From Candidatus Gastranaerophilales bacterium (GTDB taxonomy: Bacteria > Cyanobacteriota > Vampirovibrionia > Gastranaerophilales > Gastranaerophilaceae), in contig CANQNW010000008.1 in assembly GCA_947625305.1 (NCBI GenBank), positions 1 through 64,000 on the forward strand: a stretch of DNA of 64,000 bases. Direction: 5' to 3'. This document shows positions 14,954 to 43,445 of the stretch, in pieces; the first letter of the stretch is position 1; the number at the start of each line of letters is the position of its first letter. Below the pieces are notes generated by a model that saw only the letters and a list, made by a program, of their open reading frames with translations, did no database searches and was not told where the DNA came from. Position numbers and translations under genes: made by a program.

Positions 14954-15697
14954 ATGAATATAAATCGTTTTTCATTTGTTAAATTTAATTCCGTAATCAA
15001 TGAAAAGGCTAATAAAAACTTAAATGTTCAAAAAAAAGCTTCCAATGCTAAAAAGATTGGTGAAAAATATACAACGCAAGCATTAGGTGAAGAAGGCGGA
15101 AATAGAGTAATTAAAGATGAACAAACTTTTACTCCAAAGGTTTATAAGGAGAATGTTAAAAATCCGGAAGAAGCAAAAGATATTGTTGATAAATTAAAAG
15201 CTGAAGGTACTCCTGCCCCCAAGGTTTATCTTGATAGTGCTCAAGAAGGCAAAAAAATCCAAGGTACACCGGGACCAGGTGTTCATCTAGACGAAGGACA
15301 ATATGAAGGTAAAAAAATCCAAGGTACCCCGGGACCAGGTGTTCATCTAGACGAAGGACAAGAAGGCAAAAAAATCCAAGGTACACCGGGACCAGGTGTT
15401 CATCTAGACGAAGGACAAGAAGGCAAAAAAATCCAAGGTACACCGGGACCAGGTGTTCATCTAGACGAAGGACAAGAAGGTGAAAAAATCCAAGGTACTC
15501 CCGGGCCTAATCTTGAAGGAAAAGTCAACCGTGTAAAAATTGATGCATCAAACAGAGAATTACCTACAATTGACTTTGATTATACGGGCTATGTCAAAAT
15601 AAGTAAGCATATTCCTAAATTTAATCCTAAAGAAACAACAACTATGGCATTAGGTGAAGAAGGCGGGAGCAAGTATCCTAATTTATCAGAATATTAA
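14954..15697 (+). CDS. Putative plesiocin-like graspetide precursor with internal tandem repeats
   Basis: A 247-residue soluble protein with no signal peptide or membrane segment. Two near-identical motifs fit the plesiocin core consensus TTxxxxEE: TTQALGEEGG starting at residue 40 and TTMALGEEGG starting at residue 229. Between them are four 19-residue repeats (about 98-174; EGKKIQGTPGPGVHLDEGQ) plus a degenerate first unit and a partial fifth. Each repeat has Thr followed by Asp-Glu. In plesiocin the two Thr are joined to the two Glu by ester bonds; that this happens here is inference, supported by the divergent MvdD-like ligase 122 bases away. It is unusually long for a RiPP precursor. An AGAAAGGG site precedes the ATG. 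Confidence 0.65.
   Translation: MNINRFSFVKFNSVINEKANKNLNVQKKASNAKKIGEKYTTQALGEEGGNRVIKDEQTFTPKVYKENVKNPEEAKDIVDKLKAEGTPAPKVYLDSAQEGKKIQGTPGPGVHLDEGQYEGKKIQGTPGPGVHLDEGQEGKKIQGTPGPGVHLDEGQEGKKIQGTPGPGVHLDEGQEGEKIQGTPGPNLEGKVNRVKIDASNRELPTIDFDYTGYVKISKHIPKFNPKETTTMALGEEGGSKYPNLSEY
15245..15511 (+). repeat. 57-bp coding tandem repeats
   Basis: Units at 15245-15304 (60 bp, with one extra Tyr codon), 15305-15361, 15362-15418, 15419-15475, and a partial unit at 15476-15511. Copies are nearly identical at the DNA level, which indicates recent expansion and likely copy-number variation. Confidence 0.9.
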
Positions 15698-24461: not shown

Positions 24462-24489
24462 TTGTATTATATATATAAATTGTTATAAT
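24462..24489 (+). promoter_or_regulatory. Promoter of the poly-C peptide operon
   Basis: TTGTAT (24462-24467) and TATAAT (24484-24489) are 16 bases apart, 23 bases upstream of the GTG start of the TupA-like gene. Confidence 0.55.
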
Positions 24490-25500: not shown

Positions 25501-25672
25501 ATGCCTGATAATAATGACTATAAAGATATATCAGACTTAAGCATTAGTGAAATAAACCAACTTTTCTCGGACATAATAGAATTCCCCCCCCCCCATAGAT
25601 GCTAGAGTTGCAATGGATACCATGTATACAATATCCGCTACTCCGGGTTTAGGTTGTGGAGGTCCAAAATAA
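25501..25672 (+). CDS. RiPP-like precursor peptide 1, switched out of frame by a C11 tract
   Basis: As given, translation from the ATG (strong AAAGGAG upstream) stops at 25603-25605 after 34 residues, just past a tract of 11 C. With 10 C the frame runs to the TAA at 25670-25672 and gives a 56-residue peptide: an acidic helical leader (DLSISEINQLFSDIIE), a PPP linker, then a divergent C-terminal part with RVAMDTMY and ending GLGCGGPK. A second copy follows. Leader conserved and core variable is the usual RiPP pattern. Either the gene is phase-variable and OFF here, or the tract length is a sequencing error. The modifying enzyme is probably the radical SAM/SPASM protein at 25901. Confidence 0.65.
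25584..25594 (+). repeat. Poly-C tract, 11 C (precursor 1)
   Basis: Eleven consecutive C in a strongly AT-rich genome, inside the coding region of precursor 1. One C fewer restores the full reading frame. Such tracts are hot spots for slipped-strand mispairing. Confidence 0.9.
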
Positions 25673-25707
25673 ACTTGGTAAAAGGTTAAATTTAAAAGGA
25701 GCGTAAT

Positions 25708-25883
25708 ATGACAGATAACAATAATGATATACCAGACTTAAGCATTAGTGAAATAAACCAACTTTTCTCGGACATAATAGAATCCCCCCCCCATACGAGG
25801 GTAGAATCGCAATGGATTCTGTGAATGTGCCAGGATTATTGACCGGTGGGACGAATGTCGTTAGCTGCGGTGGAGGAAAATAA
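25708..25883 (+). CDS. RiPP-like precursor peptide 2, switched out of frame by a C9 tract
   Basis: A second copy of the precursor gene with its own AAAAGGAG site. A 51-bp stretch of the leader (25733-25783) is identical to copy 1 (25532-25582). With the 9 C given, the frame ends at 25822-25824 after 38 residues. With 10 C it runs to the TAA at 25881-25883 and gives 58 residues; the core then aligns with copy 1 (RIAMDSVN versus RVAMDTMY) and ends VVSCGGGK. The common end Cys-Gly-Gly-x-Lys suggests the Cys region is the modified or recognised part. The second copy being restored by the same tract length argues that both frames are real. Confidence 0.65.
25784..25792 (+). repeat. Poly-C tract, 9 C (precursor 2)
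   Basis: Nine consecutive C at the same place in copy 2 as the 11-C tract in copy 1. One more C restores the full frame. Confidence 0.9.
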
Positions 25884-42491: not shown

Positions 42492-43445
42492 TTACATTTT
42501 ATATTTTTTAACTAAAATCGGGACAAATTCCTCCCACATTTTGTTGGAGGGATGATGATTATCAATTTTATAATCCGATGTACAATATGGCTTATTTGCC
42601 GTTTCTTCCATATTAATAATTTCAAATCCCCCCCCCCTTGGATTTGTAAGCTTTTTATATTCTTCCTCCGTAAACCAGGTATTAAGGTTGTGTATGTGTT
42701 TTAAATCATCTTCATTACAATCATTATCCCAATATAAAAGCATTATTAATTTTGCATGAGGATATCTGTCTTTTATTATATTTACGCTTCTTGAAAATAA
42801 ATCAAACATTAATTTTGAGGTTGCTTTTTTATTACTGTTTTTGATTTTTTCAATTCCATACTGAATATATTTTACTGTTAATAACCTGTAGAAGAACGGG
42901 TAAACCCTTTTATTCGCCTGCAGATTTCCTGTTTTATCATAAGTGTAATGTAGATATAAACCTGTATCATGAGGCCATCCTTGATAAAAATACAGTCTTC
43001 TTTTTTGATCGTGAATAAATGTATATATGATATATTCAGGGTCAAGTTTTTCTATAGCTTTATTTATTTGAAGGTGTCTGTACATATGAGAAATTGTCCA
43101 GCCGTCCTGTGCCAAATTATATACAGGTCTTTTTGTTATTCTTGAAAGTACTCCCGAAAAATTTTCATCATCAGATAATTTATTACCATAAGTAACCGAA
43201 CAGCCAAATAATAATATAGGTTTCTTTTTGTAATCTTTTCCGCTTATCGGTCTTTGTTCTTCAGAAGGTACATCATAAAATCTGTATTCCTCCTTAACAA
43301 TATAGCTTTTAAGTACAAACTTAATCGCTTCTAATTTACTCATAAATTGTGATTGAAAATTTACTGCCATTATATAGCATATAATTTCTGAAATAATAAA
43401 AACAAAAATAAATGCAATTATATTATATAAAATTAATTTTTTCAT
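42492..43445 (-). CDS. SGNH/GDSL-fold membrane-anchored protein with a phase-variable-type G10 tract
   Basis: A 317-residue protein with an N-terminal membrane helix (residues ~4-28) and an SGNH hydrolase-like domain: block I GCSVTYG with Ser83, block II NLAQDGWT, and block V DNHHP with Asp295 and His298. Such proteins often acetylate or deacetylate surface glycans. The gene contains a run of 10 G encoding Gly271-273, about 20 codons before the catalytic Asp/His; it is in frame here. Eleven G would stop translation two codons later, and nine G would read an unrelated tail. It is divergent from a GT-C glycosyltransferase. Confidence 0.75.
   Translation of the reverse strand: MKKLILYNIIAFIFVFIISEIICYIMAVNFQSQFMSKLEAIKFVLKSYIVKEEYRFYDVPSEEQRPISGKDYKKKPILLFGCSVTYGNKLSDDENFSGVLSRITKRPVYNLAQDGWTISHMYRHLQINKAIEKLDPEYIIYTFIHDQKRRLYFYQGWPHDTGLYLHYTYDKTGNLQANKRVYPFFYRLLTVKYIQYGIEKIKNSNKKATSKLMFDLFSRSVNIIKDRYPHAKLIMLLYWDNDCNEDDLKHIHNLNTWFTEEEYKKLTNPRGGGFEIINMEETANKPYCTSDYKIDNHHPSNKMWEEFVPILVKKYKM
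42628..42637 (-). repeat. Poly-G/C tract, 10 bases, in the SGNH gene
   Basis: Ten consecutive C on the plus strand (G on the coding strand). With the two tracts at 25584 and 25784 it is one of only three such long C/G runs noticed in the window. Confidence 0.9.

Follow-up and report, generated by a model that had tools for sequence, protein, structure and literature searches.

Poly-C tracts between leader and core in tandem RiPP-like precursor genes of a gut Gastranaerophilales bacterium: a likely case of phase-variable peptide production

Phase-variable genes and radical SAM maturases

Phase variation, i.e., switching by slippage within homopolymer tracts, is a classic and well-known phenomenon, with stochastic switching of this sort known mainly from mucosal pathogens. 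The classic epsilonproteobacterial cases are not known to possess the MutS/MutL repair system. The genome considered here resembles those of Campylobacter, Helicobacter, and Neisseria in possessing G or C runs of 8 to 11, these being found within coding sequence as well as in promoter spacers, in having about half of the associated genes out of frame, and in the prominence of glycan and surface genes among all those with tracts. It differs in that its host is instead a non-photosynthetic relative of cyanobacteria (Gastranaerophilales), in that a RiPP operon would be what is switched, and in that, unlike the classic epsilonproteobacterial cases, both MutS and MutL are kept.

The nearest published case of phase-variable peptide genes that was found is that of the Nap peptides of Neisseria gonorrhoeae. 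There, in the nap island (NapR/NapC), poly-G or other homopolymer tracts lie inside small bacteriocin-like peptide genes, with napC mostly OFF in isolates and one Nap peptide carrying a GG-leader (PMC11798529). No radical SAM maturase is mentioned in the passages of that source drawn on here, whereas in the present case the tract separates leader from core in a radical SAM RiPP precursor.

As to enzymes, the likeness is to SkfB, SuiB, AlbA, and CteB, with which the maturase described here shares domain order, a CxxxCxxC motif, SPASM cysteines, and a short, Cys-bearing precursor adjoining the enzyme, and also, to judge from a structure model, probably an N-terminal recognition domain. It is unlike them in falling far under every named NCBIfam cut-off, in having its own leader family (LSIxEINxLFxDIIExP), and in being partnered with a TupA-like ATP-grasp. 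Similarity of the enzyme to SkfB, AlbA, and CteB is the only basis for speaking of a sactipeptide or ranthipeptide. A literature search, in which subscription journals were mostly not covered, found no paper on phase variation in Gastranaerophilales nor any joining homopolymer phase variation with RiPPs. A phase-variable RiPP, and likewise a large tract set in a member of the Gastranaerophilales that keeps MutS and MutL, appear not to have been reported previously.

Tandem precursors and their operon

The window, that is, the whole stretch of DNA analysed, consists of the first 64,000 nucleotides of contig CANQNW010000008.1. It contains an operon of ATP-grasp gene, two tandem precursor genes, and maturase gene (Table 1).

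Table 1. Features of the precursor operon within the window.
Feature	Position	Strand	Basis and remarks
Probable operon promoter, TTGTAT-16-TATAAT	24462..24489	+	Inferred from sequence
TupA-like ATP-grasp, first operon gene, 328 aa	24513..25499	+	GTG start; Pfam PF14305, E 1.9e-26
Precursor gene 1	25501..25672	+	Leader MPDNNDYKDISDLSISEINQLFSDIIE, poly-C, core; leader profile E 4.3e-16; ATG 25501; stop at 25605 as assembled; TAA 25670-25672 with 10 C
C11 tract	25584..25594	+	Leader/core junction of precursor 1
Precursor gene 2, tandem copy	25708..25883	+	Leader profile E 1.6e-11; ATG 25708; stop at 25824 as assembled; TAA 25881-25883 with 10 C
C9 tract	25784..25792	+	Leader/core junction of precursor 2
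Radical SAM/SPASM peptide maturase, intact, 407 aa	25901..27124	+	Pfam Radical_SAM, E 1.9e-18

Direct reading bears out what a sequence-only reading had described, which is a first copy with 11 C that stops after 34 codons and a second copy with 9 C that stops after 38, both being OFF as assembled. A single-base change switches the frame in either precursor, with these frames closed at 11 and at 9 but open at 10 C. Also upheld is that 10 C gives full frames which align with each other: The first is then 56 aa, ending ...FPPPIDARVAMDTMYTISATPGLGCGGPK, and the second 58 aa, ending ...SPPPYEGRIAMDSVNVPGLLTGGTNVVSCGGGK, and their cores, once in frame, match as RVAMDTMY and RIAMDSVN, and as CGGPK and CGGGK (precursor 1 then precursor 2). 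That earlier reading took this twofold recovery of 10 C as indicating that the frames are real. The frames do hold up, but the agreement on 10 C is itself only modest evidence because solely length modulo 3 counts, such that agreement by chance has a likelihood of about 1 in 3.

The frames rest strongly, by sequence comparison, on a tract-free homologue along with about 40 intact family members. The homologue comes from the same operon in another genome (L039 of G029), the maturase of which is 71% identical to that of the window. Its precursor, MPNDNNDEDLTNLSIEEINDLFSDIIEFPEDARLARNSNNKPGGASGLCDGGK, is uninterrupted and without a tract, and reads ...IIEFPEDARLA...LCDGGK, i.e., ...IIEFPEDARLARNSNNKPGGASGLCDGGK, with TTTCCCGAAGATGCAAGACTTGCC occupying the place of the window's C run plus ATAGATGCTAGAGTTGCA. 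More generally, a profile of the leader (as given above) matches approximately 40 precursors, nearly all of them within the window's Gastranaerophilales genus. These are short and adjoin the enzyme, and have conserved leaders along with diverse, mostly Cys-bearing cores, which is what a radical SAM/SPASM RiPP system calls for. No name for this RiPP-like leader family is known to me. In one relative (G022; L176, L190, and some 13 further places) there are also about 15 Cys-bearing open frames of roughly 90-175 aa with a related leader, and these longer frames, as read from their sequences, are an expansion of the precursor family.

Poly-C was not found to be conserved across the precursor family, being present in only the two window genes among about 43, which implies that this position for a switch is young. 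Lack of the tract in relatives was, in the sequence-only reading, to have shown that the frameshifts are sequencing errors. As far as precursors go relatives indeed lack it, but the contingency reading is not thereby refuted since it is another gene of the same operon that carries a tract there.

The maturase has the radical SAM motif as CNLKCKHC as well as C-terminal cysteines that are invariant in 8 relatives, and can be classed with radical SAM/SPASM enzymes, even though its score against the SPASM model, 18.2 bits, is just under the cut-off of 21.5. By sequence-profile search its closest solved relatives are SkfB, entry 5wgg, and PqqE, with 5wgg being the thioether enzyme which I take to be CteB. 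The best structure matches of its AlphaFold2 model (mean pLDDT 71, with the SPASM region partly poor) are SuiB and SkfB, these matches running over the full length and including the N-terminal part. There the model places strands and helices, at moderate confidence, where SuiB and SkfB have a leader-recognition domain, and this part of the predicted structure is probably a recognition domain (RRE) as well. Assignment to a named NCBIfam family was considered and set aside: AlbA, GeoRSP, and similar models all score far below cut-off, e.g., 76 bits versus 400 for GeoRSP.

The ATP-grasp does not qualify the system as a graspetide, as its sole Pfam match is to the TupA-like rather than the graspetide type, and among NCBIfam models it has only a chance-level match to D-Ala ligase. 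No homopolymer tract is present in this ATP-grasp gene of the window, in contrast to its counterparts from 13 sister operons.

Tracts across the genome and in sister operons

The genome to which the window belongs (1.97 Mb, 97% complete, 32% G+C) has 71 C/G runs of at least 8, versus approximately 1.5 as expected from base composition. By length there are 10 runs of 6, 3 of 7, 6 of 8, 40 of 9, 20 of 10, and 5 of 11, i.e., a distribution with a hump at 9 rather than one of decay. The window itself, at 14.8% C and 16.9% G, has no C/G runs at all of 6-8 and yet three long ones, of 9, 10, and 11. The third of these is C10 at 42628-42637 (G10 on the minus strand), lying in frame within a gene on the minus strand that encodes some 317 aa and is without a Pfam match. 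Elsewhere in the window, at 14954-15697, is an open reading frame whose product repeats a unit of about 18 residues in tandem (EGKKIQGTPGPGVHLDEGQ).

About 52 of the genome's tracts, judged from the sequence surrounding them, are coding, and a simple frame test of my own, uncertain in some of its calls, divides these into 26 in frame and 26 out of frame. Pfam matches of tract genes include glycosyltransferases (families 2, 8, and 61), RgpF, UDP-galactopyranose mutase, WbqC, FkbM methyltransferases, MBOAT and AlgX-like acetyltransferases, DegT aminotransferase, and PIG-L deacetylase, and further ones include PEP mutase, nucleotidyltransferases, and radical SAM proteins. Many of these, going by annotation, are of glycan or surface type, which are the usual classes of contingency genes. 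Tracts are also present in two housekeeping genes, unexpectedly for contingency loci, i.e., those for PurD (L128:7558, out of frame) and RNase HII (L100:330, in frame), and not every tract thus need be adaptive.

Several noncoding tracts occupy the spacer that separates a −35-like element from TATAAT, and a layout of G8-9-TAAAA(G/A)TGG-TATAAT recurs among them. As judged from that arrangement, these spacer tracts are probably transcriptional switches. Such G tracts are seen at L109, L118, L121, L126, and L127, and the called genes 3' of spacer tracts mostly begin like those of secreted or membrane proteins.

Within the genus, genomes (G000-G093) range from 0 to 121 C/G runs of at least 8, and quite unevenly so, with most having either 0-5 or 20-121. 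Loss of mismatch repair can be rejected as a general cause of the tracts since the window genome, like most of its tract-rich relatives, retains both MutS and MutL. Nor is the uneven tract number among relatives explained by MutS/MutL.

In sister operons it is the ATP-grasp gene which carries the tract, that is, a poly-G of 8-10 in 13 operons from 9 genomes. In most of these it lies 51-56 bases after an ATG, several of these ATGs sitting directly behind a TTGCAA...TATAAT-like promoter. Two of these tracts are ON, 10 are OFF, and one is broken by a contig end. In the tract-free homologue's operon the ATP-grasp tract is interrupted, as GGGGGGTGGGG, and is in frame. On two further contigs of the window genome, C14 and C17, the same module of promoter, start, and G tract precedes instead a precursor, with no ATP-grasp gene present. 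This module, at L110:2430-2500 for C14 and on the minus strand near 2480 of L114 for C17, consists of promoter, ATG, about 18 codons, and then G10 or G11. On C17 the open frame continues as far as the start of the precursor, an arrangement that would suit translational coupling. Presence of tracts at different places within one kind of operon argues for selection on switching.

Recent tandem copies differ in tract length: 11 versus 9 within the window, and 10 versus 9 between the tandem operons of G020, where upstream flanks differ at only 2 of 97 bases and 9 G is ON but 10 G is OFF. To go by these two pairs of sequences, tract length is changing faster than are flanks, though no second strain was compared.

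Explanations for the tracts and what they may mean

The explanation that I hold with considerable confidence, even though the evidence is indirect and there are no population length data, is that these poly-C tracts switch peptide production ON and OFF by slippage. That the tracts form contingency loci, as initially suggested from the window alone, gains support from the genome-wide excess of C/G runs 8-11 bases long, with about half of those that are coding lying out of frame, as well as from the classic phase-variable gene classes and the poly-G of sister ATP-grasp genes, which is near-fixed in position and occurs at both ON and OFF lengths. Each precursor would possess a hypermutable poly-C exactly between its leader, presumably the part recognized by the maturase, and its core, which would become the product. 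Slipped-strand mispairing during replication would then add or remove a C. With 10 C (or 7, or 13), leader and core would be joined in frame and peptide would be made. Other lengths would yield only the leader followed by a few incorrect residues, i.e., production would stop but with enzymes intact. It is as part of this same, well-favored explanation that the window genes are viewed as RiPP-like precursors made with the adjacent maturase and TupA-like ATP-grasp, with the product inferred and a thioether unproven. Slippage rate, reversibility, product, and benefit are all inferred, the last perhaps being hedging in competition, avoidance of self-toxicity, or a role in phage and host recognition.

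It is possible, albeit unlikely, that the tracts are real but that their lengths are assembly or sequencing errors, with both genes having 10 C and being permanently in frame. Homopolymers that are 9-11 long readily pick up errors, the genome apparently is a metagenome assembly in which tract lengths are a consensus, possibly off by one, and a single base per copy is all that separates OFF from ON. ON and OFF states consequently are provisional here, with the existence of the tracts unaffected. Errors cannot, however, produce the genome's numerous long C/G runs with their hump at 9, not at 32% G+C, nor are the sister ATP-grasp tracts, mostly OFF too, from the same assembly. Tracts this long, furthermore, are slippage-prone in those organisms that have been studied so far.

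Still less likely is that the tract is a join at which the product can be altered, whether through alternative-frame tails or through exchange of cores by recombination. The 51 bases upstream of C11 and C9 are identical between copies, if one extra T in copy 1 is allowed for, while the cores beyond diverge, and C-terminal sequence switching has been described in Helicobacter canadensis (PMC2823697). The leader identity is also explained, though, by recent duplication, the alternative tails (PPPHRC and PPHTRVESQWIL) are short and without the family's C-terminal motif, and nowhere else in the window genome was a donor cassette carrying the leader DNA seen.

That the precursors are instead decaying pseudogenes, with the runs being neutral expansions in unneeded genes, is quite doubtful. 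Both copies are OFF, it is true, and decay could be read as well into a related operon (L149 of G005) in which the ATP-grasp is out of frame, the maturase gene is frame-shifted, and one precursor has a G7 near its end. In the window, however, maturase and ATP-grasp are intact and the tract is the sole lesion of each precursor, with leaders identical just before it, and with the core motif, including Cys-Gly-Gly and the final Lys, retained, and many tract genes of the same genome are in frame. Least credible is that the frame is corrected during expression, with RNA polymerase or the ribosome slipping along the C run so as to give a constant full-length fraction from unchanged DNA, which, though both copies are off by one and such slippage is known for long A/T homopolymers, is opposed by the two copies differing in length and needing opposite corrections, by known cases mostly involving A/T runs, and by this genome's tract genes being equally in and out of frame, such that no fixed offset is kept.

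Returning to switching by slippage, a broader reading, which I favor but with appreciable reservation, is that a radical SAM peptide family of gut Gastranaerophilales is phase-variable, with its switch moving between operon genes and existing as part of a set of some 70 tracts in a genome that has kept mismatch repair. That moving switch would consist of poly-G in the sister ATP-grasp gene or, at two loci, before a precursor, and of poly-C in the window precursors. That tracts recur, and do so in different genes, within the same type of operon suggests that switching of the peptide as such is selected for, and a switch positioned between leader and core halts only the product, sparing the enzymes. 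Such precursors would look broken to genome-mining tools and be discarded by them, and other switched RiPPs may therefore be missed. With tract numbers varying so widely across a genus, and MutS and MutL kept, the origin of tract sets becomes testable by comparison. A little-studied, mostly uncultured lineage of gut commensals appears, that is, to switch both glycan genes and a RiPP family, and to do so at the scale of Campylobacter.
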